64,000 nucleotides of DNA from Norana najaformis (taxonomy: Eukaryota; Annelida; Clitellata; Crassiclitellata; Hormogastridae). Below the pieces are notes generated by a model. The model was given only the letters and a program-made list of their open reading frames with translations, did not search any database and was not told where the DNA came from. The translations under genes and the position numbers were made by a program. Below, piece after piece: positions 20,130-62,426 of the stretch; position 1 is the stretch's first letter, and the number at the start of each line of letters is the position of its first letter. The stretch is taken from assembly GCA_964023275.1 (NCBI GenBank), contig OZ029916.1:33158727-33222726 (forward strand), read 5' to 3'.

Positions 20130-20184
20130 TTCGATGCAGTCTAGAATATCAACAACAATCAGCTGAAGCCACTCTGTTAGATAG

Positions 20185-20194: not shown

Positions 20195-20339
20195 AGCAGC
20201 TGCCACTGCGGCCTGCAAGGTTGGCCAGTCGGGGCGCCAATCGCTGCGCTCGGCTTCCCATGGAGATCACCTGGTCTCCTGCTTTCATATATAAACACCG
20301 AACACACTCCTATAATTCTAATTTATATTTGTATTTGTA

Positions 20340-21845: not shown

Positions 21846-22140
21846 GCTAAAAAAGATGAGATTTCAAAATTCAAATGGTGCAATGTTTCCAAATGAATCC
21901 AACCCTTTCGGACCAAGAAATGTCGAAATATCATTTCACTCAACTTTCAAAACGTTAGGCCTATATCCACATAAAATCAAATCAGTATAATATTCACTTC
22001 AGCTAATAGAAATGCCATAGAAGCATAATAAACTGTCAATCGGAACAAAGTACAATTGCATCATCAAAATACTATCTGCAATCCATTCTTGGGTGATGTT
22101 AAAAAGTTACTGTTATTCACTAGTAAATCCGGCAGCATCA

Positions 22141-25605: not shown

Positions 25606-26187
25606 GTACCTAAACATTTATATAAAGTCTACAAGAACCTATCAGGTGATGTTTAAGACAAGGCATGGCATAGCAGAAAGGACAAGGAAGTGCCAGACAA
25701 TACAAACTATGGCAGGGAGCAACAAGGCATAATATTCCGTGTTTATTTTGGGTCACTGGTGTTAAGGTGAGCAGGAATTAGTAGCAGACAAATTAATGTT
25801 ATTCGCCAGATTTGACAAATTGTTAAATAAACGACATATAATCCACAAGGTATGACAAATAAATACATTATCGATTTTGCATAGTACCCAAAGGCCGTTT
25901 CGCGACATTATAGTAGTCTGTTTATATGTGAAAGCAGCTAAGCATCTAAAGCAAGGTACTGCGCATATAAGTTAGGTAGCTTTTTAACTTTAGTAAGGTT
26001 TGGTCAATTCAATGTGCATAGTAATAGTTAACCACAAACAATGTTTTACAAATTGATAAACTATGCATAACAAAATGCAGTTTGATTAAGTGTTGAAGCT
26101 ACTAATCAACTACTTAATGATGAGTGTTCCTCACAGAAATGAATTCAGTGGTTGCGGTTTTTCTTCGTGGGTTAAAGGTAACCGCGG
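25606..26187 (+). other. 3' flank of BPI-C
   Basis: No feature recognised; no clear AATAAA for gene C within the first 100 bases after its stop. Confidence 0.5.
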
Positions 26188-26859
26188 TTACTGCGAGTGC
26201 TGTACGTCGGTTGATATGCGTAGACAATGGTCCCGCATCTCCAGCTCAACGTCGTTGAAGCTGACACCACGAAGAACCGGAATTGGAATTCCTTCTTGGC
26301 CTTTCTCGTTTAGCTTCGGAATGAGGAAAGCGTTGCTCAATAGCTCAGCTGCTTTTGACAATAAGTCGCTAGAAATCGAGCCAATTGTGCTGATGACCAC
26401 GTCCAGAGTCGGAAGGAGGCGTGTCACGGTTCCCTTTAGCACGGCTGCATTCAAGTTCACCGTACCGAAAACGTCCATGTTGACATTGACCTTCAGAACC
26501 GCAACAACCGAACCATTCGAAAGCCTAATCATGAAGGTCATGACCCCAGAAAATGTGACCTGGATTGTGTTAGTAGAGATTTTGGCAGTCGGCGCTTTGG
26601 ATGCCGCCATTTCCACTTCCACGGAGGCGTTCGGATACATATTAGAAAGCTCAGGAAAGATGTTTCCCAAGCAGCAAGCTTCAGTGGGACAGGTGGTATT
26701 GAAACAACTCTTGAACTCGTCTGGGAGGTTGTGGTATGTCAAAGTGTAACGAAGGAGGTTTTGTCTATAGATGGCGTAACCGATGGTGTTCGGTACATAG
26801 TCTGAGACCCAGATAGTCAACATGTGGTTCGAATTTGTCGTCGTTGGAAATGGAGCTGC
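26188..26859 (-). CDS. BPI: BPI-C exon 3
   Basis: 223 codons plus TAA, acceptor TGTAG. It begins AAPFPTTTNSNHM and ends HCLRISTDVQHSQ. Extra Cys pair CPTEACC. Intron 2 before it is only 275 bases and carries a CTGA simple repeat. Confidence 0.92.
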   Translation of the reverse strand, partial: AAPFPTTTNSNHMLTIWVSDYVPNTIGYAIYRQNLLRYTLTYHNLPDEFKSCFNTTCPTEACCLGNIFPELSNMYPNASVEVEMAASKAPTAKISTNTIQVTFSGVMTFMIRLSNGSVVAVLKVNVNMDVFGTVNLNAAVLKGTVTRLLPTLDVVISTIGSISSDLLSKAAELLSNAFLIPKLNEKGQEGIPIPVLRGVSFNDVELEMRDHCLRISTDVQHSQ

Positions 26860-29800
26860 CTACAATAATCAACACTGACTTTCTGGTTCATTTGTTTCTT
26901 TGATTAATTAAAAGACTGAATAGTTCATAAAGTGTTTGATGCATTCACTGACTGACCTACTTACTGACTGGTTGACTGACTGACTGACTGACTCACTAAC
27001 TAACTGATAGACTGACGGGCGCACACAACCACGGATTCAGTAACACACTTGCTCGCTCTGCTATTTCTAAAATATTCTACAGTACACGAGCTTGCCCATT
27101 CATCATCCTATTCAATTTTAATCAATCTTCTCACTTGGAAAGGCGCTTCAGTTGCGTCGTTCTTGTAGTTGAACGCGGCCTTGTGCTTTGTATCCAAATA
27201 GCCACTCTGAATATCGGGTGCTGACAGGAAGCGATAGTCCAGCAGCCAATCAGAATTGACTCTCTGCTGAAGAGGAAATGACGTCAAAAAGTCGTTCGCC
27301 ATTCCGTTTATGACGTTCGTTGCTGCTTCGCAGATCTTCGTCTGAAGCTGGTTCTGAATCGGTCTTTCAACGAACCCAATGAACAAGTTGTACAGCCAGC
27401 TGGCTCCTCCTCTCAGTCTGATAGACACGGATGAGATACTGCAGCTGCAGCCAGTGCTTGAGATTGTCGGATGCCCAGTGGCATCGAGGCCAAGGCTTAC
27501 CGACAGGCTGATCGAAGCTCCTCTCACCAAACCCGTGAAGGTACCCGAATCGCCGATTCTGATGAACAATAACTGGTATTTGTACCCCCAGTTGCCGTCT
27601 ACAGAGATGCCCATATTGGAAAGCGTCCAAGTGATACTACCTGGACTGACCACAACGCTCGACGAAGGCTTAACTACCTCTGCCACCTGTTAAAATAATA
27701 TGCAGTCATGCGTGATTTCAGCAGAAGCGTAATAAACGTACCTACATTTCAGTAAACGACAACAGGAAAAGCATAAAAGGCCATGGTGTGAAGAGACTGG
27801 TATACAAACTTTCATCCTGAGCTGAATTGCTTACGGCGATATCGCCATTGCTGACATGACTCAACGGAGTACCAATCGCCTTCAGGCGAATATCAACGCC
27901 GTTGCCAGTCTAGCCGTTCAAATAAAACAGTTCGACCAAATCACGCCTGTGTGATGAGACCAGCTTCAACGGCTCAGAAGAGTCGACGAGTGCGTCAAAT
28001 GCAAACTTTACGAACTCGTCTGCTATTGTTTGTCGATGCCTTCGTGCCAACAAATAAGACTAAAACGGGTGATAGGGCCTTTAGGACCGTGCCAGACTGT
28101 GTGAAACAGCCTTACAGTATCTGTTTATGAGCCCGAAAGTGTTCATTCTTTTAGACAGCAATCTAATTCCAATGTGTTATTTAATTCTTAGCACTTGCGC
28201 TTACAACTGACACTGCAAAGCACCCTGGAAGTAGCTCGATCCTTAGCATGCAAAAAAATTCTCGCCACTACAATTTCAACTACATTTCCGCTCGGGGCGG
28301 AAAGGGTTCCACATTTTCTCTGTCAGGGACTAATTATTACAAACAGGTGCTCAAATCCAAGCAGAATGATTGTCTCTGCGAGTCTGGATTATTGGCTGGT
28401 TCGGGAAGAGTAAACGGACATGCAAAAGAGAACGAAGTATGTAAACATTCGGATACTGAAGGTGGGATAAACCGATACCTCGTAAACTTGTTGCGGGCGG
28501 ATAACTACGCAATCTACTAAACCATGCTACATTTTAGGTTGTCGGTTCAGGGTCTATCTGATTTTCAGTGGATCAACAGAGTATTTCCTATTATGATAAG
28601 TAACAGTGATCAGTAGTCACCTACTACAGGCAACAGCTGCTAACTAAACTACTTTTAAGTAGTTCAGAAGTTAAAAAGTTGACACTACTTTGTTTCAAAG
28701 TAGTTGTAGCTAGTAGTTGAACTACCAACTCTTAATTTGTAGTTAACTACAGTTTCCTAACTACTCTTTCAGCAAGTGAGTTTTTCTAGTGCACACTTGC
28801 TACATGTCTCCAGTGTATTCAAATTATAATTATTTTATGTCACAGATGGCAACATTGCTAGGCTGCTTTTCCGGTTAATACTGGTGAAATGCATGGATTA
28901 CTAGACATTTCAGAGGTCAACAAAAGGCGCTATAAAAATATACATGCATATTTACATGCACACTTACATACATACATAGGCCTACATACATACATAGGCC
29001 TACATACATACATACATTCATACATACATGCATGCATACATGCATTCATACGCGCATACATGGATATATACACACATACATGCATGCATACATACATATG
29101 TTCATACATACATATACATACATATATATACATACATACATGCACACATACATTCATGCATACATGCATATATACACACGAACATACATACATACATACA
29201 TACATATATTATATGTACGTACGTAAGTACAATGTCGTACATACATACATATGTAAGGCATGAACCGATGACGCACCAAGACGAAACGGAGAGTCGTATG
29301 ACTTTCCAGAAGTTGGCACCCCTGGGACAAAGATTGTAATGGTATTAGTAATCGTAAACTCGAGATTTTTACAGCGCCCGAAGAAAGCTAAGTTGCGGGA
29401 ACTAGCTGATCCACAGGCGCTTAGTCAAAATAAAATCGATAGGAAGGTAAGGTTAGATTCGGTTCAAGGTCAGGATCCATGGGTTAGGCAGGCAGAGTCG
29501 GATGGCCCCGGTGCATGGTGTTTAAAGTTGGAGGGGCGTAAGAGATGAGTTATAGAGGGTCATAGAGGATCCAAGACAGAATTTGTGTAAGAGGAGTGTT
29601 TTTCAGTTTTGATTCTTTTGAGTTAACTGTTGGATTGTAGAGCGTTCTCGGCTGATGGTCCACGGCTTTGGAATTTGCTGTCATGTTCGATTCGTTCTGT
29701 CAGTTCTGTGAGAGTTCTTCAGTTGCATACTTAGCAATTTGTCCCTATCGTCTCCACAGTTGGCAACATTGCTTGTAAAGTAATATATATATTCGCGTAC

Positions 29801-38935: not shown

Positions 38936-39290
38936 CACTGAAGGTGTCAGATTAGCATAAAAAGTTTGTAAAAACTGCACGCAAGACAAACGCAGCTGCA
39001 CTTTACAGGACATCGTGTGCTGCAATGTGGGTGGGAATAGTCGTTTCATTCTTTCATTCAATCAATTAATCGTTCGCTCATTCATTTACTCAATCGTTAG
39101 TCCATTAAAAATCCCAGTGTGGGTCTACAAAATGAAAAAAATAGAAAATTATTGTCTACATTCCATTGCAGATTCAAAGTTTTTAATTAATTGCAAATTG
39201 TTATAAATCGCTTGATTTTTTCTTTAAAATAGGCATTTATATTATTTGTTTGCTTGTCTGCATTAATTCGCAATGTGCATATGAGTTGTT

Positions 39291-39992
39291 TCATTCGTTG
39301 TTGGGCAAAAAGCGAAAAGTGGTTGCGGCGGCAGCGTATTTAACGTCGGTTGAGATGCGCAAGCAGTGGTCTTCATTTTCCAGCCTGGTGTTGACAAAAC
39401 GGACGTCTTTGATGCTGGGAATCGGAATTCCCTTCTGGCAGATGACATTCAGTCTTGGAATAGCGACGGTCTTGGCAATCAGGTTGGAAATGGTCGTCAG
39501 AATCTGGTCGGATATCTCCCCAATCTGGCTTTCGGTGATGCGGATCACGGATGTTATTTCGGCGATGTTACCTGTCAGGATCATGTCGTTCAGCGACACC
39601 GTCAAAGATATCGCAACTGAAACGTTTGTCTTGAACAGTGGAACCAGAGAACCGTTGCTGAGTCTGGCTCTGCAGGTGACAGTTCCAACACCTGTTCCCT
39701 TTAAGCCGGCGCTTGATACGGATGCAATAGGGTAGCTGGAAACTGCCATTTCCATTTCGACGGATGCGTTTGGATAAGCCTTAGCTGCCTGAGGAACTAA
39801 AAATCCGAAGCACTTGAGGCTGGTACATGTGGTGTTGAGGAATCCCTTGTCCTCCGGTGGCAAGTCGTTCTTGGTCAGCGTGTGCTTCAGGATGCCGTTC
39901 TTGAAGAGAACGTATGACATCGTGTTAAGCATGTAATCAGACACCCAGATGGTCACCATTCGATCGGTTGCTGATGCAGGGAACAGAGCCGC
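39291..39992 (-). CDS. BPI: BPI-D exon 3
   Basis: 233 codons plus TGA; acceptor GGCAG. The five-A run at 39,307-39,311 keeps the frame to FRFLPNNE. Confidence 0.93.
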   Translation of the reverse strand, partial: AALFPASATDRMVTIWVSDYMLNTMSYVLFKNGILKHTLTKNDLPPEDKGFLNTTCTSLKCFGFLVPQAAKAYPNASVEMEMAVSSYPIASVSSAGLKGTGVGTVTCRARLSNGSLVPLFKTNVSVAISLTVSLNDMILTGNIAEITSVIRITESQIGEISDQILTTISNLIAKTVAIPRLNVICQKGIPIPSIKDVRFVNTRLENEDHCLRISTDVKYAAAATTFRFLPNNE

Positions 39993-42900
39993 CTGCCAAA
40001 GTTAACAAAAGTCATCGCATTATGTAAATGCTCAATTCTTAAGCGATGCTATAGACTTGAAAGTTTACGCAGAGCCGCGTTTGCATTCGAAGTTGTTTTG
40101 AATTATGTGTAAGTCGTTCTTTTTATGTTAAAATGATGAACTATTTACTCCTAATTAGTTATTGGGATAAATTTCTCAGTACAAACAAACGATTATTAAA
40201 CTTCATACGTACAGCTTACGAAAGAGTTTTAACATAGTCGCATTGCAGGGTGCTTTTGAATGGGTGGTTTAAGAATAGAATGGAATGCAACATAAATCCC
40301 CAAAAATATGTGAGTCCTACAAAAAAGCTGTGTCGGGGAGAAAGACTAACTTATTTACCGGCGCTTAGATACCTGTAACTGTTAGTAATAGTGGTGGTTT
40401 TTGTCATAAAGTATATTGATTAGTCTCTTCATACATCAATATTTGCATGCAGTTTTTGCGACAACTGTAATATACATTTTTATTACATGTTTGAGGAGTT
40501 CGTTCGTATCAAATGAAATCCCTTGGCCAAGGGGACGGAGTTAATGTTAACTAACGACAACGAATCAGGGTTTAACTTGGAGCCACCATCGATTGATGCA
40601 TTATTACAGCGGCGCTATAGAGGTCGTTAGATGATATTTAATTAGATTATAAGATTTCATTGTGGCTGTCATGCGCATAACGCAAACTGTTGCTAATAGG
40701 ATAGCTCAGATATGTCTGTTAGTTGATCGTTTGTCGCTGTTTACTCGTTAGATGTAAGAGCGACGTGCGTTAATATTTAAAATCAGCATTCGGCAGATGT
40801 CACCACGGTAGACATCGCTGCAATGTAGGCTACCGTAGGCAGGCAAGTAGCCAACAGCGCATTGTACAGAATGAGCTCTTCTACTTGGGATGGCATCCAG
40901 CCGTTTCTACATCGTAGTTTAACATCATAAGGTCGTGGTTTAAGACCATGAGATCATTGCTTAGCTCACGGTTTTTAGATAATGACGTCATAGTTTGAGA
41001 TCATGACGTCATGGTTTGAGATCATAAAGTCATGGTCTGAGATCATAAAGTCGCGGTTGGAGCCCATGAAACCGTGGTACAGGGCATAATTTATAGAGCA
41101 ACGTAGTGTAGCGCTTTGTAAATTTAAGAAAGAAATAAAGCCGTATTTTCAATATATACCTGGAATGGTGCTTCCGTGGTGTCGTTCTTGAGGAAGAACT
41201 CTCCCTTATGGAACGATTCAACGAATCCGTGCTGAAATACAGGAGGAGATACCAGGCGGTAGTCCAACACCCAGCGATCCATGATCGGAATAGCCACCGG
41301 AAGTGTGGCCAGCTCGGTTCTGGCGTTTACGTCTATGGCCTTGCGGGCTTCTTGGCACAGCTGAACTTGTAGGGATTTCTTAAGTGGTTGTGCCACCTGT
41401 TTCGAGAATAGGTTGTACAGCCAACTGGCTCCTCCGTGGAAGCGGACCTTGAGAGAGTCGATGTTGCACGTGCATCCGGTGCTTGAGATGGTCACGTGAC
41501 CGGAAGCGTCTTGACCAAAGATGGCGCTGACGGCGAGGATACGTCCGGCGGAGACGCTGACGTCGAAGGTCCCGTGGTCCTTGATAAAGTGCAGCTTGTA
41601 GCGCCATCGACCGCTTATTGAGATCTGCGTGTTCAGTAGAGTCCAGGTCAGACCAGTCTTTGGATCGATTGTCACGGCGGTTGACGGCTTTCCAAAGTGG
41701 GTGATCTAGGAATAGATCCGTATATATTTATGTATGTATGTCTGTATGTATATACTTTTGCATGGATGCATAGCATAGTAAGCTTACATAGTATGTATTT
41801 ATGTACAGAAAACTACAAACACATACATATCATACATGTATGGATACGTATACATAACAGGTATGTATGCATGTGTGTGTGCATGTGTGTATATATGGAC
41901 GTACATACATTGTCAATGGGAGGAAGGCGAAGGAGCGATTGGCCGTAGGGTCAGCAGTGGAGGGCCATGCAGCAACGTGGCTATATCAAAAAGCGTTGGA
42001 AGTGTCAGAGGTTCTTGATTCTGGTGGTGGGTTTAGTGGGTTGGTAATGGGTTTGCTGGAGTGGAGGAAGAAAACTTGGTGTGGTTGTGACAGACGGCTG
42101 AGAGGAGAGACAGAAGAGACTTCAGCCGAAAAGCAATTAATGGCGAAGTAACGAAGATAGGGGTAGAAGCCTTCTGTTCTGGGTAGTCAGGGTAGTTAGT
42201 GTGATGTCTTGAAGGGAAAAGAGGTCGCTAACGGGCGTAAAATATATCCATTTCGTTTGAGCTCGAAGCACCGACAGTCTTTCGAGTTTCGTGTGAGTGC
42301 AAAGAGACATGTTCATTTAGTCAACAGGATCTTATTTCCTGAATAAGGGAGAGTTTAGATTTCCAGAAAGCCGATCCTAAGTGTAGAGTTAACTGCGGAT
42401 TGATTTTTGTCAGTAATAAAGAGGACAAACTGATTGACTATAGGTGTAATATAGTGCAGTGTAACAGAGCAGTTATATATTTATAATGTGTGTCGTTTAT
42501 AAGCATGCTGTTGTACAATCACATAGTCAAAGATATCATCACCTTCTAGTCGGGATCAGTCCACAAATGGTTCACGCGGTGGCAGTACGAGGTATTGGGC
42601 CAAGCTCTCAACAGCCGGACCCCGATGCACTTGCCATGGATCGTCGCCCCTACCCTGAGACGCAGAACCCCTTGGTATCACCCTGGTACCTGGGCTCTAT
42701 ACTACACTCTACCCTCATGGAAGTGGAACCCGGCAAGTTCAGACAAACTTAAGATAACAGTTCATCACACGATACTGATGCCCATATAATATACTTACAC
42801 GCATATCGCTGATTTCGTAATGGACTTTTCCAACCCTGGTCTTCGCTGTTCCAGATTGATCCGGAATTTTCAGTGTCATCACTTTCTTTGTCAGGATGTC

Positions 42901-43095
42901 CACAGCGACTCCGGCGGCATAGTTGAGGCCAGGCTGAGACACACGGAACTTGAATCCTGGATTGACCACATTGGAGTCGAACTCCACTGCTGCTGTTTCA
43001 GATGATGATGAAGATGATGATGTTATTCCACTCAACAGCATCGCCAGAAGCAGGATCATCTCTGCTGTCACTCCTCGAATCAACCTCTGCGTCAT
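39291..43095 (-). CDS. BPI: BPI-D: BPI/LBP-family protein, three exons
   Basis: Exons 42,799-43,095, 41,160-41,705 and 39,291-39,992 join in phase 0 to 514 aa. It is a near-identical twin of gene B: one residue differs in exon 2 (LKKSLQ versus LKKPLQ), two in mature exon 1, and about ten in exon 3. The C terminus ends FRFLPNNE, which looks ancestral because the inverted exon copy in gene B agrees with it. Signal peptide, poly-Ser tract, N-terminal barrel Cys pair and C-terminal barrel motifs are as in B. Expected role: secreted, LPS-binding antibacterial protein. Confidence 0.92.
40917..41073 (+). repeat. 21-bp tandem array with two TGACGTCA palindromes, BPI-D intron 2
   Basis: Counterpart of 17,963-18,126; palindromes at 40,983-40,990 and 41,004-41,011. 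Confidence 0.8.
41160..41705 (-). CDS. BPI: BPI-D exon 2
   Basis: 182 codons; acceptor CCTAG, donor GTATAT. Same motifs as gene B exon 2. Confidence 0.93.
41725..41912 (+). repeat. TATG/CATA microsatellite, BPI-D intron 1
   Basis: Counterpart of 18,765-18,945 with length and unit differences. Confidence 0.85.
41913..42798 (-). other. Remainder of BPI-D intron 1
   Basis: Matches gene B intron 1 at high identity; nothing else recognised. Confidence 0.7.
42799..43095 (-). CDS. BPI: BPI-D exon 1
   Basis: 99 codons; donor GTAAGT. Start Met at 43,093-43,095, as in gene B. Reads TKTRVGKV where B has TAKIWVGKV-type sequence (TR versus IW). Confidence 0.86.
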
Positions 43096-43150
43096 TTCGA
43101 TGCAGTCTAGAATATCAACAACAATCAGCTGAAGCAGCTCTGTTAGATAG

Positions 43151-43160
43151 GCTTTTATGT
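43151..43160 (-). promoter_or_regulatory. TATA-like box of BPI-D
   Basis: ACATAAAAGC on the minus strand about 60 bases before the start codon. Confidence 0.4.
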
Positions 43161-43309
43161 AACAGCTGCCACTGTGGCCTGCAAGGTTGGCCAGTCGGGG
43201 CCCCAATCGCTGCGCTCGGCTTCCCATGGAGATCATCTGGTCTCCTGCTTTCATATATACACACCCAACCCACTCCTATAATTCTAATTTATAATTGTAT
43301 TTGTATTTT

Positions 43310-44820
43310 TAAAATTGTATAGCGCCACATCGATAATCTATTCAGTGGCGTTGTCTTCGCTAGCCTAATAAATGTCAGATTTCATTAAGAACAGAAATTC
43401 ATCAGTTGCCAAGCAAGGCTCTTAATTAATATTATAATTACAAAGTCACCAACGTGTGCTCCTGCACACCAGCAGAGCCCCACCAAAAGATTCTCACTCA
43501 GAGTTTAGAGCTTAATGGAATGTTCAGCTCTCCTGCGCCGCGTGGCATCAAGGATGAGGATCGATGGCAAAGTATGTGGTTCAACACTTGGGGCAAACGG
43601 CTCTCTCGCCGTCCAGCAGTTTCCCACTGTAGAAAAGCATTTTTTGTGCAGGTCATGCATTTGATATGTCATAGAGCCTCTCCGTGCAACTCCAAACACT
43701 TTTTCTCGCCCTTACTTTACTGAATTCAAGATTTTTCCGGTTCATCATGGTCAATTATCCCTATGAGAACCTACCACCCCTTAATGGTTGACGGGTCCAC
43801 ATGGCACCGAGGACGAACGCAATGTTCAAAGCGCAAAAAAATCAAACAGGAATCGAGAAAAACGCTGAAACGCGCACTCAGTTGCAGTAGAAGTCCGAAC
43901 AAATGTGAATTATCCGGCTTATTTCGCGGAAGACGAAGAAACTGACAAATGGCAAAGGCACTGTGTGCTGGTCCATCCACTTAGAAGTCTTCTTCCGAGC
44001 ATTCGCACAGTTCCACCTAACTCAGCTTAAGTTACATTTTCTTCCTATTCTTAGGCAGATGTCTCAGACGGCCATGTTCACAGCGATTTAATAGAGATTC
44101 CTACAAGGCGCCGTTTAAAGGTTTAGATACATACATATTGATTTATGAAAGATCTGCAGAAGGCATACTTTTGTATGTATGTGTTGTTAGTTATTATTAG
44201 TATTAGTTTTTAAACTTCTACAGCCCGCTGTGTAGTCCTAATGCACAAGGCATCAGTCCATGACGCACCATAAGCAAAGGTAATAATGTTTAAGTCGCCA
44301 GACCTACACGACTTAAAGAGTGGGCCTAATATGACCTAGTTTGCAATGACAGGTCTGGATTATTTAGGCTGCAATACCTACCATAAAATATGAGTTTTCC
44401 GACCGTATGTGCATACAGAACAAACACTTGTAGCAGTATTATCTGCTGTAGAGATCCTAAAGACACGCAGTTCTGTTTCTATGATGGAATATAAGATTGG
44501 TAGGCTGAGTCATTGCAGGATCTACATAGAATTTGTCTGATTTCCCTAATTCAAGTTGGTTTTTCCGACATTAGCAGGAAGTAAAACCTATCCTGGGGAC
44601 TTCGATCGATCACAACTGCACATTTCTGCTTCGACCTATGGAAATTTAAGAGACACACTACTGCAACGAATTCATTGTTTGCTAGTAGCCGTTTGCTTCC
44701 TATTTCCCCAAAACTACAGCTAAATTTGTTATCAGCCAACAGATTTAACTTCTAAATGCTGGAGGATACTTACCTTAATAATCGACCTCTGACTTAGAAT
44801 AAGGGAACAGCCACAACGCT
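43310..44820 (+). other. BPI-D upstream region, duplicated, no gene recognised
   Basis: Counterpart of 20.34-21.85 kb. Overlapping short frames only. Confidence 0.6.
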
Positions 44821-47180: not shown

Positions 47181-47744
47181 GCACCACTAGCCACCAAGAT
47201 ACTTGCAGCAGATACTCTCCGCCAGATTGTTTTGTGGACAAAAAACGAAAATCATAAATGTTTTCTTCCAGTACAGCGCCCCTCCACACAGAGCTCTTTC
47301 AGTCCAGAACATCAGCAGTTTATGCGTTAATCCTTTTCGCTTTGAATAATATGAAATTTCGATATAAAAAGATAGCTAAAAAGATGAGATTTCAAAATTC
47401 AAATGGTGCAATGTTTCCAAATGAACCCAACCCTTTCGGTCCAAGAAATAATAAAACATCATTTCATTCAACTTTCAAAACGTTAAGCCTATATGCACAT
47501 AAAATCAAATCAGTATAATATTCACTTCATCTAATAGAAATGCCATCGAAGCATAATAAACTGTCAATCGGAACAAAGTACAATTGCATTATCAAAATAC
47601 TATCTGTAATCCATTCTTAAGTGATGTTAAAAAGTTACTGTTATTCACTAGCAAATCCGGCAGCATCAGTTTCTTAAAAGACAAGAAGTAGCTAATTTTG
47701 TTTGCTAAGAATGTTCTCATCAAAATATGTGACACTTTTCACAG

Positions 47745-48437
47745 TTATCTTGGCAGAAAGCGAAGAGTTGTGGATGGAGTGTACTTGACATCGGTTGAAA
47801 TGCGCAAACAGTGATTATCATTTTCCAGTTTAGTGTTGGTGAACTGGACATCTTTGATGCCTGGAATCGGAACTCCCTTCTGCCCAATCGTGTTCAGCTT
47901 CGGAATTATGAATACCTTCGCAGCGAGGTTGAAAACGCTGTTGAGAACAAAATCTGGAATGGGACCGATCTGCGTTTCGACAACTTGAATCGTCGGAGAC
48001 AGTTTCGTGATGTTACCCCTGAGGACCATGTCGTTCAGCGACACTGCCAAAGACACCATGACCGATACCTTCGTCTTGAACATCGGAACCAGTGAACCGT
48101 TGCTTAGCCTGGCTCTGTAAGCAATGATGCCAGCAAAGTTCCCCTGTATATCGGCACTCGAGATGGTCGCAATGGGGTAACTCGAGGCGAACATCTCCAG
48201 CTCGGCGGATGCATTCGGAAACGCCTTGGCAGCTTGTGGAATCAGGAATCCGAAACAGGCAAGGCTTGTGCATGTAGTGTTGAGGAATCCCTTTTCATCG
48301 GCCGGCAGGTCATCCTTAGTCAGGTTGTGCCTTAGGATGTCGTGCTTGTAGAGAACGTATCCCATCGTCTTCAGGATGTAATCCGAGACTAAGATCAGTA
48401 TCATTCTATCGCTTGTTGCGGTGGGAAACGCATCTGC
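47745..48437 (-). CDS. BPI: BPI-E exon 3
   Basis: 230 codons plus TAA; acceptor TGCAG. Begins ADAFPTATSDRM and ends TTLRFLPR. Confidence 0.94.
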   Translation of the reverse strand, partial: ADAFPTATSDRMILILVSDYILKTMGYVLYKHDILRHNLTKDDLPADEKGFLNTTCTSLACFGFLIPQAAKAFPNASAELEMFASSYPIATISSADIQGNFAGIIAYRARLSNGSLVPMFKTKVSVMVSLAVSLNDMVLRGNITKLSPTIQVVETQIGPIPDFVLNSVFNLAAKVFIIPKLNTIGQKGVPIPGIKDVQFTNTKLENDNHCLRISTDVKYTPSTTLRFLPR

Positions 48438-51400
48438 CTGCAAGAAGTAACAGTTTAACCAGTTTGCATTGTCATCATTACTATCTGCAAATAACTGGCT
48501 GTGTTTCTTTTGCTCGATATCCAGATCGATAGTCCATCTTTTCTTGAATGTTCTACTTCCTTATGTGTCCACTTAGTCGTTCAACCGGAGCTACTGACAC
48601 TTATGTTCTCAAATAACAGACTTCTGATCGGCTTAGAGTGGTCTCGGAGCGCTTCTTGTTAAATATTGTGGAGACGTTACGTATATTATGTGTTATATTG
48701 CATCGCATTATCATTCATCGTTAACCGACCAAAGGGCCTAACTAAGGAAAACCATTGTACCTCCGCGTCCTACTATGGCATACGGGTAAAGTTCACGAAC
48801 TACATTTACCGCATTCACTTTAGGATTATAAAGTAGGCTATGCATAGTCAGCCTCCTGTCAGCTACGCTTGTGGTGCAACATGGGCCCATACTGGACCCG
48901 TAGCTGCCCATCAATTTCCGCCAGTGGCACAGTGCGGGCCACTCTAGGCTTAGTGAACACGTGTGGGGCCATTAGCCTGCCGGCATCTTTACCTGGAAGG
49001 GCGCTTCGACTGTTTCACTCTTGAAGAAGAACTCTCCTTTATGAAAGGAATCCATGAATCCAGCCTGGAAGGCCGGTGGTGACGTCAGACGATAGTCGAA
49101 TACCCAGGTATTGTCGATGATGAAGTCAACAGGTAGCGTGGCCAGCTCCTCTCGGGCGTTATGGTTGATGGCATTCTGAGCTGCATCGCATATCTGCGTC
49201 TGAAGACCGTTTCGAAGAGGGTCCTCTACGTACCCGATGAATAGCTTGTAGAGCCAGCTGGCACCGCCGTGCAGCTGAATCTTAACGGAATCGACGTTGC
49301 ACTGACAGCCGGTGCTGGCGATGGTCGGGTGACCGGTTTGATCCTGGCCGAGTGTAACGGATTCGCTCAACGAGGCGCCGGACACGTCTCCGTCGAAGCT
49401 TCCCGAGTCCTGAATGACGATGAATCCAAGACGGTACTTGTAGTGCCAGTTGCCGCTGACCGAGATGCCCGCGTTGCTCAGCTGCCACGTCAGACCATGG
49501 CCTGGGTTGATGGACACCGCTGTACCTGGCTTTACGAAACTGGTCACCTGTGAAAACAGGTGAAAATATAAGGTCAGATGATTGCTCGAAGTTTGGTCAC
49601 CTGTAGAAACGGGTGAAGGTAAGAGAATATTATATGTTGCTTGACGACGTTGGTTCACTTTTAGAAATATTTATTTAGGGTTATTTAGAATTTAGTCACC
49701 CATACACAAACAGCCAAGGTAAGAGGTTGGTGGCTGTTTTTGCAGAAGTTGCTAACCTATAACATAAACGAGTGAAAATGAGGGGAGGTAACTCGATGTA
49801 CTCACGTTAAGCGAAGTTAGTTAATGCGTGCGAATTAGAGTAAAGCAGGATAAGGAGAATAGTTCTAATAGTCCCTATTTGGGACTATGGTGGAGTGTGA
49901 TCAGGTAAGTTGAAGTAATTAAAGTTTGGTAAAGTAAAGGTACATAAGGTCAGGCAGTCAGAATGGTTGATATATGGTTGAAAAGTAAAGCAGAATAAGA
50001 AAAGTATGGATGAAGCAATGTATCGTAAGGTCGCATCAGGTTAAGCACAATATTATGGCCAACCATAAGACCACACCACAACCTGCAGTTGGCGAATGGT
50101 TGCACAGTTGGTCATCGTTAAAGTCTCGTTCGATATCGCCGTTTAAGTTGTCCTGCGTTATGGAATCAATTTTTCAATGTGACCTAGATTTTTGTGCGGT
50201 TCCGAAAGCTACCTGGACAGTTTATATCGCTGAAGCCCTAGCATCTTTTTGAACGGCATGTAAGTCCAGCCTGAACATTGCTTGTATACAGTGTTGAACC
50301 CGGACATTACACTCGATCATTTCACAAAATTAATATCACGAGAACACTGCTCGGACAACCATTAGACAGTTGTCCATTTTAGTCTGTGGACCGTTACTCT
50401 GCAATTCCCTGTCACTCTATAGGCTATATAACTTTCTAGTTTTTCTACATTATCCTACATCAATTTAATTACAACGAGTATAAAATTCTGACTGAAAACT
50501 TATTTAAGCTTATAACAAGGTCTGCGCTCTTGCTTTCATGTAGACCTGTTTCTGTAACACAGATGGAAACTTCTGTAAATAAACCAGTCACTGGGGTGAC
50601 CCAGAGCCATCTATACACGGTATAGATGGCTCTGGGGTGACCTACTTGATAAATAATCTAATAAGTTAATCTAACAATCTAAGAACTTCTATAGCGCCAC
50701 TGTATTAATGCTCAAGGCATCAGTCGATGGTCGCTGCTGAGCAAAATCGTTGTGCTAGTCCAATTCAATGGAAAGCTCGGTCTAAAAGCCGGGTGGGGGT
50801 ATCCAGACGACACAGAGACACAGACAACCTACGGAGGAAATGAGTCCAGAAAGAGCTGAGTTTTAGTCGGTATCTGGAGGCCAAAACAGACTGCCAAGCG
50901 CACATTTGCCGGAAGAGAGTTCAAGATGCTAGAGCCAGCCACCGAAAAGGCACGCCTGTCCAGATCTGTTCTTGTCCACGGAATAGTCAGATAATCGAAT
51001 GCATGATAATCGAACATTATTGTTCCTTTTGGTTTTACCCATTTACATCTATGCAAAGTGACTGAAATTGTGTTGTTTAACAGGTGATCCTATATATAGG
51101 ATTTGAACCTGGTCTAGACTATATGCCGTCTGTGACAATAAAAACATGAATTCGGTGATAAAACGGAAAGCCAGAGTCTTTTGAATGAACTCTCCCGTCC
51201 ACGAGAGGTTTCGATTACCCAACTGACGAATGCTCCAGCCAGTACAGTGATTCTGCTTGAGAAGGAACATTCGGACGCGACACGCTCAATACACCATTAG
51301 CACAACAAGGCATCGCCATTAAATGCACGATCGTAACCGCGTACTATCAACTCGGCTGTCGTCATTCCTCGGCTTCAGACAGCACGAATCAAGAACTAAC

Positions 51401-53047
51401 TGTCAGGTATGGAGGCTAAATCGCTGGTCTGGCTTAATTTAGGCCTACTCGCGACTGAATAACTTTAAATTGCATGCGGTTTTATATAGCGACCGTATGG
51501 CCTCGACCCCGCTAACTTTTGCAAATGCGTATATCTCACACCCGTGGATGGATAAACTTTGACGACGTATTTCTTATTTATTCGTATTTAGTAGACTATT
51601 TAGTACTTATTCTTATTTAGTGAATAAAATAATTTTTCTAACAAGTAATTTGATAGTTGTATTTTAAATTGTTGCAAAAAGTATTTTGTATTTTAAATAC
51701 TTTTCTGATCAAGTATTTATGCTTGTACTTTAATTACTTTTTAAAAGTTTTTCCCACCACCGCGCTTCATCGACTGTCAGAGACTCAATTCATCGACATA
51801 CGGTAAACGTAAGGACTACATTAGCTGTAGAACCAACAGCTTGCCTGAGCGTCATAGGCCCTGATAAAATACATGTGACACTTCCCGTTGGGGGCTTCCT
51901 GTTATTCCAGCATCATCCAGCTGTGGATGGGCTTTTCTTGTTATCACACTATGACATCATTTCACTTGAAGAGACCATCAACTGCTGCCTTGTGCATTAT
52001 GACAACGTAATGTTCTCAGTAGGCGCTGTATAAATGTCCAAATACATACATATGTTACACTCATACATGCACAGTTACAGGTATATAATGTGAGGTGAAT
52101 TCAGAAGTTTCCACGTGAGGCCAGGAAACATAAGGTGAATTGCGAAACAGGTAGTGTATTTGGGGGGGGGGGGGTAACTCTAGCCCAGTGGCGGATTTAT
52201 CTATAGGCTTGGAGGTCGGTTCGCCCTCCGCGCCCCTCTTGGTTATAGGCCTATGCCGGCGCCTCTGACACCACATCCGTGCATGGTGGACTGCCAGAAT
52301 CAGGTGCAACTCTCTGGAAATGCCCTAGCCCCCACGCAAGCAATCCTGGGGCCACCATTGCCCTAAGGCAATATGTCGCTTTCAAAGAAACTTAAGCCAA
52401 TTCACTTTTAGGTTAATTGATGGGTGTGCGATAGTCTACTGGAGAGCTTGCTGGATTGTCACCCCTCAAGTCGGGTTTTCAAATCCATGTCAGGGTAGAA
52501 AAAGGTTTCACGATTTCTGCTCCATGGCATTCTTTCACTCCCTAGCGAATCCGGCCATTAAACGCGTTCACAGTCGTTGTGAAGATCAGGCGGCAAAGGA
52601 CAGGAATGGCCAACCGCCCTCATATGCTCAAACTAAGCAAATACATCATACTCGTATCTGCCTTTCAGGATTAATTTAAGGGACTGTTCCTCGTAGGTTA
52701 AGTAGACCTGTACCTAAGTAAGATCAATTCAATGAAAAATGAGCAGGATCGAGGCCACACGATCACTACAGAAAAACGTGTAGATTTACGCATGAACTTA
52801 CGTGTATGTTCGTAACGTCGTACGAAACCTTTCCAACTGGCAAATCGGCCGATCCGTGCTGATCAGGGATCTTCAGCTGCCCTACGCTCTTTGCCAGAAT
52901 ATCAACTGCAACGCCCGCTCCGTAGTTTAGACCCGACTGGGACAGCCGGAACTGTAGCCCTGGGGTAACCGACCCCAGCGCCACCGTCCCGACTAACAAC
53001 AGATAGCAAAATGCTTGTGACACTACACCGTTTAAAGTGGTCGCCAT
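47745..53047 (-). CDS. BPI: BPI-E: BPI/LBP-family protein, three exons
   Basis: Exons 52,802-53,047, 48,993-49,547 and 47,745-48,437 join in phase 0 to 497 aa. Signal peptide (FCYLLLVGTVALG), TPGLQFRLSQSGLNYGAGVA, LKIPDQHGSADLPVGKV. The N-terminal barrel has STGCQC...TQICDAA and GGASWLYKLFIGYVE. The C-terminal domain has SDRMILILVSDYILKTMGYVLY, KGVPIPGIKDV and HCLRISTDV. Clean splice sites throughout (GTAAGT/GTAAAG donors). Intron 1 is 3.25 kb with a LINE tail and the boundary of the segmental duplication. Its duplicate on the left has lost exons 2 and 3. Expected role: secreted LPS-binding antibacterial protein. Confidence 0.93.
48993..49547 (-). CDS. BPI: BPI-E exon 2
   Basis: 185 codons; acceptor CACAG, donor GTAAAG. 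VTSFVKPGTAV, GLTWQLSNAGISVSGNWHYK, conserved Cys pair, EAPFQ. Confidence 0.94.
50602..50633 (+). repeat. 32-bp palindromic insertion flanked by 9-bp direct repeats
   Basis: 16-bp perfect arms (50,601-50,616 and 50,620-50,635) with a 3-base loop. GGGGTGACC stands on both sides (50,593-50,601 and 50,634-50,642). The left duplicate has a single GGGGTGACC and no palindrome. Confidence 0.9.
50680..51290 (-). repeat. LINE tail in BPI-E intron 1
   Basis: The minus frame reads MFDYHAFDYLTIPWTRTDLD then RRAFSVAGSSILNSLPANV, the C-terminal tail of a non-LTR polymerase, and ends in the 3' untranslated GAGCATTAATACAGTGGCGC stretch. Related copy at 54.83-55.33 kb; truncated copy at 22.94-23.23 kb. Confidence 0.8.
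51422..52727 (-). other. BPI-E intron 1, part outside the duplication
   Basis: Contains AGGCGCTGTATAAATGTCC followed by CATACATA (52.02-52.05 kb), a G run (52,162-52,174) and a CAGTGGCGGATTTA motif like some DNA-transposon ends (about 52,187). No coding frame supported. Confidence 0.5.
52728..52792 (+). repeat. Direct repeat beside BPI-E exon 1, copy 1
   Basis: TGAAAAATGAGCAGGATCGA through AACGTGTAGATTTACG; the second copy at 53,501-53,567 is about 80-85% identical. The two copies bracket exon 1. Confidence 0.7.
52802..53047 (-). CDS. BPI: BPI-E exon 1
   Basis: 82 codons from the Met at 53,045-53,047, chosen because it directly precedes the signal peptide; an in-frame Met lies 25 codons upstream. 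Donor GTAAGT. Ends YDVTNIH. Confidence 0.87.
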
Positions 53048-56009: not shown

Positions 56010-58479
56010 TTAAAGAATCGGCTTAGAGTCCATGCAGCTGTGCTCCATCCAGTGATCCATGCTGTCGTCATTCAAGATGACCTGGCCACAGAATGAACAG
56101 CACAAGACTTCATTGTCCAGTGTGCTCCACGGATTTGTCTTCCTGCTCGAACTTTTTGAGATATGTGCACGATGGGCGGCAAGAAGTTCCTGTTGCTTCT
56201 CAATGTTCGGCAAAAGTACAACCAACTCAGGGAAGATTTTCTGAAAGGCTTCCATCCCAATAACCTCGGAACACTGGCTGTAGTACTCCTTTGCATTGAT
56301 GTGGTTCTTGCGGAAGTTCAGAGAAATTTCTTTGAAGCGATCAAATGTGGCTTCTGTGGTTTCGTTCATAATATTTTCAATGAGTCTTGTGTTGCGGTCC
56401 AGTGAACGCTTTGGTGGTATGTAGAACGAGGTCTTTGGAAGCACTCCATATGAATTCTGTGTGGCAGTATCAGCCAAGCCAAAGAGTGCATCTTCTGGTT
56501 CACTTATCAAAGGCTTTGTGAAACCTGGGGGCGGTTTGCTGGCTGCGACTTTTGAAGAAAATCCAGGAGGTGGCTTGACAGTAGTGCTTGAAAACCCAGG
56601 AGGTGGTGGCACTTTTGAAAGAACAGAGGAGCAACTGTCACTGTTGATGTCTAATGTACAGCTTGTTAAATTCTCTTGGCTAGTGACTGGGTCTGTAGAT
56701 AGATGTGGCAGGTTACTAGACATGAACAGTGTGTTAATGGTTAGATTTTCAGCGGCCAAGAGAGCACTTGCAGAACCTCCAGATAGGCTTGGAAAGTCAC
56801 TTGGTGCAAACTTCGGCTGAAAGTCAGAATTTTCCAGAGACAGCTCATCAGGAATTAGACCAGACGACTCAGAAGAAGCAAGCGGCTGGCAGTCAGTGGC
56901 ATTTTTAACATTGCAGTCATCAGTCGATATTTCACCAGCGGCAACTAGCTCTTCCTCTTGTTTGGTGACAGCTTCAGTGCCTGCTGCTAAGTCCCTATCA
57001 CCAAGTGTCGACTCTTCTTTCACAGAAGAGTCATTGTCTTCCTTGGTGTCACAGGACAATGGCATTTTAAACATGGGTGCATCAACTCGCAGTTGCACCT
57101 CCTTCTTCGACTCGACTTTGTTCTGTTTGCTGTTCACCACTTTTTGTTTTGACATTAACTTCGGAAAGTCATTTGGCTCAAACTCTGACTCTGCCGTGTC
57201 TGTTTTCAGTTGCTCCAAATCTTTTCCATTTGCTTCATTTTTCGACTTTCCTTTCTTTTTTGCACCACTTTTCTCGCTGCCATCGACAATCATTGATTGG
57301 CTTTTTTCTTTCTTGTCTTTGGGATTCTTTTCAACGGCACACTGCATTTTAACATTATCCTTGTCCAGAGATTTAGTATCTTTGTCAGCTACAATTCTTG
57401 AGCAATTTTCTTTAGCGACTGATTCACTTATTTGACTACAAGAAACTTTACCAAGGTCTTTTTTGGCAAATTTTTCTTCTTTTAATGTAAGTACTTGTTC
57501 TTTCTCAGCTTTGCTTTTTTTATGCTTCTTTTGGTCAAAGTTTGACACTTCCGCTGCATTTTCAACAGCCGATGGCAGTCCCTTTTTTGAAATTTCGTTT
57601 TCCAAACTGCAGTTTCCTGCCAACCTTTGAGCAATGTCTGCCAAAGACTTGACTGGTTCAGCAAAGCCTATATTCTTCTGATCCTGCAATTTATCCCCTT
57701 CTCCATTCTCCTTATCACTGGCATTGGGTTTTTTGAGTTTTGACTGCTTGGCATTGACTGTTGGTTGGTCATCGCGTCTCTTATTGCCTTTGTTCTTTAT
57801 CTCCAGCTTCAGCAGACCACTCCGTTCTGTCTGCACTGGCGGCTGCTCAGGCTCCACCTTCTCTTTCTTTTTTACCCATGTACTAGAGATCTGTGCTCCA
57901 TTTGATGGCTTCCCAAGACCTGGAAAGTCAGAGAAATTTGGGGTCGTCACACTTTTGTGGAATCCTGTAGCTGTCTTTCCGGATGCCGTTACACCATTCA
58001 GAGACTCAAATTCTTTTGACTTCAAATCTCTTGGACTTGGGTTGCCTTTCAATTTTACAGCTAAATTTGACAAACTTCCTGAGGCCTGGCTCCCATTCTG
58101 TTGCCAAATGCTACTTCTGTTTTTAACATTTCCTGAAGGCTTTTGAGACTTCAACGATGGAAAATCTGCCTCGTTCAGCGTGCCACTTCGGACAGACCGG
58201 CCAGTGTTTAAAGCAAGAACCTGAGCAAGCGAACTAGTGTTTGCTATGCATCCATTTTTATCTCCATTCTGCACAGTAAGTTTTGCACTTGGCTGGCCAA
58301 AAAGGGATGGAAAGTCATCTGAGACAGCACTGAAATTCGTCTTCTCTGCTGCAGAACTCTGACTGGACTGCAGTAAGCGTGAGTTTTCAGCGAGCTGCTG
58401 GTTCATGATACAGACTGAACCCTGGCGTTGGGCCTCGGAAAGCGACAAAGAAATCGCAAAAGCATTGTCAATTTCAGCC
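56010..58479 (-). CDS. ZNF598: ZNF598 last exon, disordered C-terminal region and last finger
   Basis: 822 aa and TAA in one exon; acceptor TCCAG. Order: UIM-like helix, DFPSLFGQ, ADFPSLKS, DFPGLGKP, a Lys-rich central stretch, NDFPKLMS, SDFPSLSG, VPPPPGFSS, KPPPGFSS, KPPPGFTK, a folded helical segment (RFKEISLNFRKNHINAKEYY), and CSFCGQVI...HWMEHSC. Confidence 0.95.
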
Positions 58480-61400
58480 CTGGAAAGGATACCGAACCAG
58501 AATAAATAAATCTCTAACAATCACAAAAGAACTTTGTGCACTTTATTAAGAGTGAAGGTCAAACCTCATGAACAACTTTTTGCTGCATTTTTATATTACA
58601 CCCAATATCAAACAGTAAAGTAATTGCTTTATAATATAAAGCCACACTAATATAAGACAGAATAGAAATTCCCCAGTCTGCTCAACAGTACCTTCTAATG
58701 AACTTAAAATAAGAAAATCTAAGTAAGAGTTCAGATAGCAAAGGACAGGACTGGTCACCTGCCCCCATGATATCAAGCTATGCAAATGAAGCTGCTATTA
58801 CTGCACACCCAAGACCCCTAAATTCTGTCTGAGGAAATTGATATACTTCATAACACTATACCAAAACAAACCTTAGGAACATTTTATATTTAAAATAAAG
58901 CACCAAGGTAAATGCTTGGTCTTTGTGTTTGGTGGAAGTTTTGGTAGCTTATGAAGTCATGCATGCATTCCTTTTAGAAGTTCCCTTAAATGCCTAGTCA
59001 ACTCCACTACATTAAAGAAAGACTGAGAACTTGCCTCCTCTCCTGCTCTTCTCGTTGCCTTTGGTCTGATCTTCCATGTCGGATTCTCCCCGCATTTCTG
59101 TCTTCAAAACCAGCTCCAGATGCACCACCTGCAGAGAACATTCAAAGATTTCACAACTGAAAATGATTTGTTGGTCTATTCCATTCTATTTGGTAGTATG
59201 CAGGGTCTGTAATACAACAATTGCGGGTACAACCCTGCTACGTAGAATCCACGTAACAACCTCAGGTAAGATGTTCACACACTCTTGTCTCACACTTCAG
59301 ATTAAGATTTCCTGATGTTTTTAAGAAGCACAGTAAATAAATAACTGAACAAAAATAACAAATGCTAAATAACAAATGCTCGAGGAATCAGCAATGACAA
59401 AATATGGTATCACTGATGATCAAAGTACAAATCAAAGAACATTGAATAAAAGATCATAAGTATGTCAAACATCACTGTCGAATCAACAGTGATGAATCAC
59501 AACATGACTGTGCAAAAATTTCTTATCAGAGCATAAAAGTGTTGAAATACTAAATAATAAATACCTGATAAACTTTATGTACGAAACTAAAATGAACTTA
59601 AGGAAACGATTTTTAGGAAGAGATTCTCATACATGATTTTTTAATATATTTGATATGGTTATCAGAGGCAGCTCATCATAAAAAGTCAAACCAATTAAAT
59701 AAAAGCAGACATTATCTGATCCAATCTGGAAACTTTACAGCATAAATATCATAATGCACAATGCATCAATCGCTTGTAGTTTCTGACCAAAACCGCATTT
59801 CAAAATCACAATCCTTTGGACTGAGCAGGTGAGTTATATATTCTAAATGTAATAAATAATAAATACAATTGTAAAGAAATATAAATAATTTAAAACAAAT
59901 ATAACTAAAGACTTGACAGTAAGATGTTGCTTCAAAAATCAAAAAGCTACATATTGAGAACACATATGGTGCCAAAAAAGTCCTGTACAAAAACTTACGA
60001 TGCACTTGAAAATTTCCCAACTGTGAAAAAATCAACAAACCTCGATGCCTATTGTTGCTTCGTCTTCCACTGTCTTGTGGTCGTGGGCCGTAATTGAAGT
60101 CGACCTCAATCGTACGCAACTGTCGTGCCTGATGTCGTCCAAGGTGTTTTCCATGAGTAGTCGAGACGTGCGCTTTCATATCAATTTCAGAACGAAACGC
60201 ATTGGTGAACTCCGTCCGAGCACATTCATCTTCTTCGCAGAGAAAGTGTTTTTCACGAAAGTGATCACGCAGATATTTATACTCTCTAACAAAATCAAAA
60301 TGATCACGAACTTAATAAGTGCATATTGTAATGTAAATTTCTCAATAATTTACAAGCCACTGTCATTACAAGTACCCTGCATGTATGCAAGTTCTCAGTC
60401 TTTCTTTAATGTAGTGGAATTGACTAGGCATTTAAGGGAACTTCTAAAAGGAATGCATGCATGACTTCACGCACATATGCATACATGCAGGGAACATATT
60501 ATATGTATGCATGTATGCAAGTACTTGTATGTATGCACCGGTATGTAAGTAGCTGAACATTCATACAGCCCTTTTAGAACTTTGCAAAAGCACTGAAAGG
60601 GTCTTAATGCCCAGTGGTTACAATGGGGCAGAAAGAACAGATGTTTCAGGTATGTAGCTTGGGCTAAAACTGTCATAAAAAATAAGTACTGTGGCTCCTA
60701 AAGAACTGAGCAGGCCAAGATCCATGTCCATACCTAATTCAACCCCTCTAGCCATCTTGCATCTTTCAAGCATCTTTTAGAGGATCTGAAGCATGGTTAC
60801 TTTATGCATCTATAGTATAAAGATGTTGCAATAAGCTGAAAATGTCTCCTGGACTGCTTCATCCAGAACACTTAGTACCTAAGTCAAAAACCTTTCCAGA
60901 TACTGGTTACAATGCAGTAATTTCTTTGTTTTGTAAATAGTCCACACAAAACTTAGACTTGGATTAAAAATACAAATTTGCAAATCAGAATATTACACCA
61001 ATAAAATATAATTGATCTAAAATCTTAATATATCTCTAAAACTAAATTTCAAGCATAACAGATTAATACAACGTCCCTATAAAAGAAACTATTCATTTCC
61101 TTACTCAAAATACTCATTGTTGATTCCATCAGTTTCACAAAAGTGACAAAAGTAGTGTTCTTGTCTCAGATGGCGCAATAATTCGTCATTGTCGAAATAT
61201 CGTTTGTCGCAAAATCTGCAAAGTGGATGAAGTCGATACGAAGTGTCATTTGAATCACCATGCCGCTTGTGTTCCGCCAGCTGCTTGCGATCATAGAATT
61301 TCCTATCACAGCCAAATAGCTGGAAGATAAACACATTCAATATTATTACTATTTCCAATTGACTGCACTGCTACTACCATTACAAGCCTTTAGGAAATCT

Positions 61401-62426
61401 GTAAAAACATGATGGGCTCTAGTTTTAGCAAACAGAAAGAATATTAGTTTTATGTAGGCTGTTTGATCATTTTGATAGACCTAATTTTGGCTAGTCATAT
61501 CCACATGGCTACCTGAAAAATTCCTAAAAGGGAATTGGCAGGCAGAAATAACCAAGACAATGCAGGCTTCCCACTAAGAACTCCAAAGAATACAAGGCCC
61601 TCCAAGAACAGCATGGTACAGGGACTTGGTGAAGGGTCCTTCACAAGCTTTGGGTTCCACACAGACTAAGATAGAACACACCCCTAAAAGATATCTACTC
61701 AGAAGCACTCCAAGCCCGAAGTTGGCGGAAAAAGCAATTTGATATCTTAGAACTTGTAGATTGTTTCAGTATTTCAAACGGGAAAACTAATGCAGGGAAG
61801 CCACTCCATACAGAACATATTATCCTGACAGTGTCATAAGTGCTTTACATAAATCAATTAATTAATTAATCCAGTGACAGAGTCATGGGTAATCAAGTAC
61901 AAACAAAAAGGGGCTGCATTTAGAAAAAAAATTTTACACCTGTGTCAAAACTGCCAAAAATCACAATCAAACATGGCATGAATTCCAGACTTATGACATA
62001 GTAACATATTCATGGTAAAAATAAATTGCGCCATGTACAGTTACATGGCAAGTTCATGTATCATGCATTAAAACGCTTCACGTCATACAGGCGGCATCAA
62101 GAGCCATGTTGCAACCACAGGTTAAGTGGATTTGTGTATAAACATGTTGTGCATAAACGGGACTGCATTTTAATAATTTTTACCTTCAGGTTTTCCACAC
62201 AAAGCTCACAGTAGAAAAGGTCATGATCTCGTTTCATGTGTTGTGCAAGTTGTTTAAAACTAGGAAATCTTCGATGATCTTTACAGAGTTTACACCGATT
62301 TTCCAGCAAGTTCTCGTAAGCTGAACGTATCGCCTCATCTTCAAAGAAGATGAACTTTTCTCGACAGATGCAAAATGAATCTAATTTGATGCGATCAAAC
62401 TTTTCCAATCTTCTAATGAAAGCAAC
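56010..62426 (-). CDS. ZNF598: ZNF598 (E3 ubiquitin ligase, ribosome-collision sensor), 5' partial
   Basis: Exons 62,184-62,426, 61,105-61,319, 60,041-60,285, 59,035-59,128 and 56,010-58,479 join to 1,088 aa plus stop. In animals ZNF598 recognises collided ribosomes, ubiquitinates small-subunit proteins such as eS10 and uS10, and starts ribosome quality control in the cytoplasm. Seen: the segment that follows the RING (VAFIRRLEKF), C2H2-type fingers (RCKLC, YCELC, LCRFC, FCHFC and CEEDEC with their His pairs), a basic linker, a UIM-like EIDNAFAISLSLSEAQ, five DFP-type motifs (DFPSL twice fully), three PPPGF motifs of the kind bound by GIGYF GYF domains, and a C-terminal CSFC...HWMEH finger. 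The RING exon is missing because it lies beyond the right edge: no RING pattern occurs in 62.4-64.0 kb. Intron 4 has a GC donor. Confidence 0.95.
58480..58951 (-). other. ZNF598 last intron, remainder
   Basis: AT-rich. Nothing recognised apart from the repeat arm at its 5' end. Confidence 0.7.
58952..59034 (+). repeat. ZNF598 inverted repeat, arm 1 (starts at the GC splice donor)
   Basis: 83 bases; reverse complement of 60,387-60,469 with one difference (59,002). Its right end is the first base of the GC-AG intron. Confidence 0.95.
59035..59128 (-). CDS. ZNF598: ZNF598 94-nt linker exon with GC donor
   Basis: Acceptor TGCAG; donor GCAAGT. GASGAGFEDRNAGRIRHGRS then a charged QRQREEQERR stretch. 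Only the GC donor gives the AG+G join to RAEIDNAF; the nearby GTTCTC would run into a stop. Confidence 0.88.
59129..60040 (-). other. ZNF598 intron between the repeat-flanked exons
   Basis: 912 bases, AT-rich, no element recognised. Confidence 0.7.
60041..60285 (-). CDS. ZNF598: ZNF598 exon with fourth and fifth fingers
   Basis: Acceptor GTTAG, donor GTTTGT. EYKYLRDHFREKHFLCEEDE, EFTNAFRSEIDMKAH, STTHGKHLG, then the basic RQLRTIEVDFNYGPRPQDS linker. Confidence 0.93.
60387..60469 (+). repeat. ZNF598 inverted repeat, arm 2
   Basis: Lies in the intron about 100 bases upstream (in transcript sense) of the exon at 60,041-60,285. It is itself flanked by a 14-bp inverted pair, CCTGCATGTATGC (ending 60,388) and GCATACATGCAGG (from 60,479). 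Confidence 0.95.
60470..61104 (-). other. ZNF598 intron, remainder
   Basis: TATG/CATG-rich at 60,475-60,550, then no recognised feature. Confidence 0.65.
61105..61319 (-). CDS. ZNF598: ZNF598 exon with second and third fingers
   Basis: Acceptor TCCAG, donor GTAAGG; ends in phase 2. LFGCDRKFYDRKQLAEHKRH, HPLCRFCDKRYFDNDELLRH, then HYFCHFCETDG. Confidence 0.95.
61320..62183 (-). other. ZNF598 intron between first two exons in window
   Basis: No coding or repeat signal recognised. Confidence 0.65.
62184..62426 (-). CDS. ZNF598: ZNF598 exon with first zinc finger (first in window)
   Basis: 81 codons, phase 0 both ends; acceptor TTTAG, donor GTAAAA. VAFIRRLEKFDRIKLDSFC, then RCKLC...HMKRDH and FYCELCVENLK. 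Confidence 0.93.

Follow-up and report, generated by a model that had tools for sequence, protein, structure and literature searches.

Reverse-complement copies made by template switching are an established class of mutation (PMC8794818, PMC7954356). Template-switch mutations and the templated insertions of microhomology-mediated break-induced replication (PMC8794818, PMC7954356, PMC8421209) are close relatives of the locus described here, the last intron of the ZNF598 gene of the annelid Norana najaformis. It lies in a stretch of 64,000 nt (GCA_964023275.1, contig OZ029916.1, positions 33,158,727 to 33,222,726), hereafter the window, whose own numbering is used throughout. Common to all is the copying, in one event, of a nearby sequence as its reverse complement, which is then able to form an RNA stem. 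In ZNF598, by contrast with those cases, the copy is found 1.35 kb away, lands in a splice donor and appears to rebuild it from GT to GC. Two 83-nt arms stand there in inverted orientation, and we think it likely from their sequence that the one at the donor (arm 1) is an inserted inverted copy of the other (arm 2), which split a GT donor and remade it as a GC donor.

Inverted repeats are also involved in some of the [D1,2] stwintrons (PMC12403724, PMC8469720). A split between donor nucleotides 1 and 2, which such stwintrons require, would follow here from the proposed empty site (G^TAAGC), but the ZNF598 insert would have become part of the outer intron. A [D1,2] stwintron requires an internal intron with a 3' AG; the insert ends GACTTCA and, since TTCA is not AG, it could not be excised as a U2 internal intron, and this class was rejected. 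In Hypoxylon stwintron hairpins the donor G is frequently unpaired (PMC8469720), whereas it is predicted to be paired in ZNF598. Introners (PMC9860276) are alike in that inserted DNA supplies a splice site, but the ZNF598 arm has no multi-copy family in the genome search and its intron would have existed beforehand. Finally, intronic complementary pairs flank circular or skipped exons and loop them out (PMC8052449), as the ZNF598 arms could do, with the difference that one of these arms contains the active donor itself. The titles and opening abstract lines surveyed, a small part of the literature with most subscription papers outside its scope, named no case in which an inverted templated insertion had turned a donor into one of another class.

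The ZNF598 gene and its two arms

The gene lies on the minus strand and is identified as ZNF598 by its last exon, which matches Pfam PF23202 PAH_ZNF598 with 76.6 bits (cut-off 25). Five exons were modelled from the reading frame and splice signals, separated by four introns of 864, 819, 912 and 555 nt, from 5' to 3'. The features are as follows, with a slash for the exon-intron boundary:

62184..62426, minus strand, furthest-upstream modelled ZNF598 exon (frame and splice signals)
61105..61319, minus strand, exon upstream of the intron that holds arm 2 (frame and splice signals)
60470..60600, plus strand, dispersed repeat with a tetranucleotide tract, adjoining arm 2 (own-genome matches)
60387..60469, plus strand, arm 2, inside the upstream intron 60,286-61,104
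60041..60285, minus strand, exon of 245 nt in the loop between the arms (frame and splice signals)
59035..59128, minus strand, exon of 94 nt in the same loop (frame and splice signals)
59029..59037, minus strand, present donor GAG/GCAAGT of the last intron, GC-AG class (frame and splice signals)
58952..59034, minus strand, arm 1, the opening 83 nt of the last intron, 82/83 to arm 2
58947..58951, minus strand, TAAGC directly following arm 1, probably what is left of an old donor GTAAGC (in-silico removal of arm 1)
56010..58479, minus strand, last exon, with the PAH_ZNF598 domain and the stop (frame and the Pfam match)

The preliminary description of this locus had named the gene, given the arms as 82/83 complementary, placed the edge of one of them on a splice donor and held that skipping both looped exons would keep the frame while a circle of both would stay open. 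All of this stands. The arms, at 58,952-59,034 and 60,387-60,469, were found again with the same coordinates and identity across a spacer of 1,352 nt, and their similarity stops abruptly at both ends. Arm 1 begins at base +1 (59,034) of the intron 58,480-59,034, so that GCAAGT lies inside it. The two exons add up to 339 nt (245 + 94), which preserves the frame when both are skipped, and the two-exon circle is open in one frame. The only finger match in the gene (PF23230, 26.1 bits, just below its cut-off of 27) spans the 61,105/60,285 junction. With the donor GAG/GCAAGT and the acceptor TTTCCAG at a predicted, frame-keeping junction, across which the frame is open, the last intron is of the GC-AG class; GC donors make up less than 1% of introns in model organisms (PMC7072748). 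If the intron were retained, translation is predicted to stop inside arm 1, after QVLSLSLM.

The sole mismatch between the arms is at 59,002, where arm 1 has C and reversed arm 2 has T; it becomes a G-U wobble in the minus-strand pre-mRNA, and thus all 83 positions can pair. Such a pair is far beyond chance expectation for the sequence. When arm 1 was searched against its own genome (a 608-Mb assembly of 17 contigs, E up to 0.001), only the two arms matched; the search skipped very common words and scored the best candidates only, so this evidence for two copies is good without being absolute. No further copy was found elsewhere in the 64-kb window, where Rfam yielded 0 families at gathering score. 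Having only two matches in the genome search, the pair is a local inverted duplication rather than a dispersed repeat, and a recent-looking one. Sharp-ended and the reverse complement of a stretch nearby, the copy also has the form that a templated inverted insertion leaves.

Two other origins of the pair have to be weighed here. Both arms could be copies of a transposable element, and the stretch adjoining arm 2 is indeed a dispersed repeat: queried with 60,470-60,640, the genome gave at least 17 matches, that stretch included, of which five were aligned. This origin is nevertheless very unlikely, given that the arms themselves matched nothing but each other and that no target-site duplication is visible beside either of them. 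With two genome matches in place of several copies (in the same word-skipping search), a dispersed repeat, a transposable element and an Introner were all rejected as classes for the arms. An assembly artefact is less credible still. Near-identical inverted arms can, as is generally known, arise by a fold-back chimera, but these arms differ by one base, two exons lie in the 1,352 nt that separate them, and ZNF598 is readable across both.

The dispersed repeat at 60470-60600 (loci L024-L034) consists of the tetranucleotide tract followed by CTGAACATTTATATAGCGCCTTTT-like sequence. Around arm 2 there is also a perfect 15-nt inverted pair, CCCTGCATGTATGCA at 60375-60389 and TGCATACATGCAGGG at 60478-60492. 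Three bases of its left half lie within arm 2, and the pair might favour a hairpin at the source.

The proposed empty site and the direction of copying

On the minus strand, the exon end AGGAG is followed by a G, by 82 nt and then by TAAGCTACC. When the 82 nt after this first intron G are removed in silico, what remains is GAG/GTAAGC, a canonical GT donor. The motif TAAG is infrequent, occurring at 14 of the 3067 positions of the introns examined, at 538 of 128,000 in the window (both strands) and at 1640 of 400,000 in a 200-kb sample; the wider motif TRAG has a background frequency of 0.8%. With TAAG at 0.41-0.46% of positions, the GTAAGC left by the removal makes arm 1 probably the inserted copy, of 82 nt (58,952-59,033) plus a retained host G at 59,034, and arm 2 probably the source. 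Weighed alone, TAAG favours the insertion of arm 1 by a ratio of about 70 to 1, which assumes that GTAAG makes up about one third of donors and leaves aside both the improbability of CAAGT at the edge of an insert and, on the opposite side, that of a pre-existing GC donor. GTAAG is found in one of the three GT donors modelled in ZNF598. Both oddities of the locus, a donor of a rare class and an arm edge that coincides with the exon boundary, follow if arm 1 was inserted into a donor and its own edge remade one.

The proposed course of events would be a templated insertion, by polymerase template switching or error-prone break repair. About 82 nt of the upstream ZNF598 intron would have been copied as their reverse complement and inserted at the 5' splice site of the last intron, between bases 1 and 2 of the donor GTAAGC. 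The retained G and the first bases of the insert, CAAGT, would then have restored a usable donor, now of the GC class (GCAAGT), at the exon edge where the old one had stood. Since that edge is unchanged, the coding sequence would be unaltered. The inverted repeat would be a by-product, its source remaining 1.35 kb upstream in the same pre-mRNA, where it could form a duplex across the new donor. What we infer from this arrangement is the direction of copying, its mechanism and a mostly inconsequential pairing (at most a drag on splicing).

The sequences flanking the arms agree in part with arm 1 as the insert. In eight comparisons, uncorrected for their number, the arm scored 15 against the downstream flank of arm 2, both inverted (equalled by 2 of 500 shuffles and by none of 660 real tiles of 300 nt) and direct (equalled by 1 of 500 shuffles and 5 of 660 tiles). 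Against the flanks of arm 1 the scores were 7-9, meaning no similarity. The counts of TGCAT/ATGCA were 4 in the arm, 7 in the 150 nt after arm 2, 2 in the 150 nt before it, and 0 and 1 beside arm 1. Resembling the downstream flank of arm 2 and not those of arm 1, the arm is likely to have its source in arm 2.

Several observations pull the other way. The upstream flank of arm 2 has no similarity to the arm either (scores 7-9), and an insert with CAAGT at its edge is itself improbable, CAAGT being found at 0.11% of positions. At arm 1 a single base (G) overlaps at one junction and no base at the other, against a microhomology of six bases if copying ran from arm 1 to arm 2. Finally, GCAAGT at the left edge of arm 2 is part of an 18-nt unit repeated at 60,508-60,525 with one difference; this fits a native arm 2, or a copy in the opposite direction through the hexamer microhomology.

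Copying in that opposite direction is the alternative to which these points lead. The GC donor would then have existed already, the first 83 nt of its intron would have been copied inverted into the upstream intron, and it would be an accident, made easier by a GCAAGT already present at the target, that the edge coincides with the boundary. The recurrence of TGCATGTATGCAAGT at 60,508-60,522 makes such a target plausible, with its six bases of microhomology. We nonetheless regard this direction as unlikely, as it accounts for neither the GTAAGC empty site nor the rarity of the GC donor nor the position of the edge, each of which would be a coincidence of its own, and the arm is similar to the downstream flank of arm 2 and not to the flanks of arm 1. 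The insertion of a copy of arm 2 into the donor thus stays the reading that we prefer. As for the preliminary description, which had turned to RNA-level effects, its geometry of duplex, loop and frame stands, but it overlooked the cause of the match between edge and boundary, which is most likely mutational.

Local inverted pairs in the genome

In a census of pairs of at least 40 nt lying within 5 kb of each other, covering 264 kb (the window and the 200-kb sample) and counting the rows of one cluster separately, there were 14 inverted pairs (2 in the window, 12 in the sample) and 19 direct pairs. At an identity of at least 98% only the 2 inverted pairs of the window remain, with 0 of 12 from the sample, and 2 direct pairs that share one sampled stretch. 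Local inverted pairs are ordinary in this genome, and near-identical ones are fewer.

The window holds a second local inverted duplication, in which 17,287-17,498 (212 nt) was copied from 16,238-16,448 with 98.6% identity. It is missing from a paralogous block, which has about 15 other bases there (paralogous source at 39212-39422, empty site near 40260). This empty site indicates that inverted insertions of this kind happen here. A run of five T has been kept in the inserted copy, as in the paralogue; the run in its source is now four T long, and the frame of the source ends differently. The surrounding genes are related and form a minus-strand tandem array (15989-23275, 26090-27690, 38957-44820 and 47375-51421), two blocks of which are about 94-96% identical; their products are putative BPI/LBP-type proteins.

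An arm edge on a donor had been called striking at first. It is so for one gene, but less so genome-wide. Extrapolated to 608 Mb, 14 pairs per 264 kb give about 32,000 pairs and, with four edges each and an assumed donor every 3 kb, chance alone would put some tens of edges at the precise position of a donor; this estimate comes from a small sample, 2 of whose 14 pairs belong to a window chosen for its ZNF598 feature.

The predicted duplex and what it would mean

We folded the 1,661-nt strand and, as controls, three versions with arm 2 shuffled. The predicted pairing between the arms is near complete (mean 0.999), which agrees with the gene model in placing, as the preliminary description had it, the donor in the duplex and the two exons in the loop. 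The donor bases +1 to +6 are predicted to be unpaired with a probability of at most 0.005, against 0.02 to 0.72 in the controls. Base +1 is already often paired in the latter (unpaired 0.04 to 0.40), so that arm 2 changes the pairing of some donor bases strongly and that of others little. To open the last six pairs would cost a predicted 12.1 kcal/mol. The predicted gain from pairing with the U1 end is 6.0 kcal/mol for the GC donor, 9.6 for the proposed old donor and 5.0 to 6.8 for the other three donors; hence the insertion would have weakened this donor to about the level of its neighbours. Once formed, the modelled duplex should obstruct its GC donor. Arm 2 is transcribed first and departs with its own intron, so timing would decide whether the two meet.

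Complementary arms do lie in the introns on both sides of a putative two-exon circle, and a circle, regulated skipping or editing may be by-products of the duplication. The titles and opening abstract lines surveyed for ZNF598 and circular RNA named no ZNF598 circle. A stronger proposal is that selection has kept the duplex for the circle or for regulated skipping of 113 residues, which would be compatible with either direction of copying. The in-frame loop, the open circle and the complete predicted pairing speak for it, as does what is reported for human genes, where the surroundings of circular RNAs are enriched in pairs of conserved complementary regions and where inclusion is lower for exons that stable pairs loop out (PMC8052449). 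Yet with 14 local inverted pairs in 264 kb such pairs are background, conserved paired regions are depleted at active human splice sites (PMC8052449), and the duplex covers the donor required for linear and back-splicing alike, so that a circle is not simply favoured. As the arms look recent, conservation cannot support a functional structure either. We consider selection for this structure improbable. We would likewise give only a slim chance to the idea that a single mutation made both the donor and its RNA lock. With the source of the copy upstream in one and the same transcript, the GC donor would on this view have faced an 83-bp partner from its birth, and the two would act at once as a switch, the rate of removal of the upstream intron deciding between full-length ZNF598 and either a protein without those 113 residues or a circle.

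An arm that ends at an exon boundary need not, then, mean a selected RNA structure. This locus is a candidate for a long RNA duplex over a splice site arising at once and not through slow compensatory change. It is also a readable candidate for the conversion of a GT-AG intron to GC-AG in one step with the exon edge unmoved. If such events recur, the donor of an intron need not be its original one.
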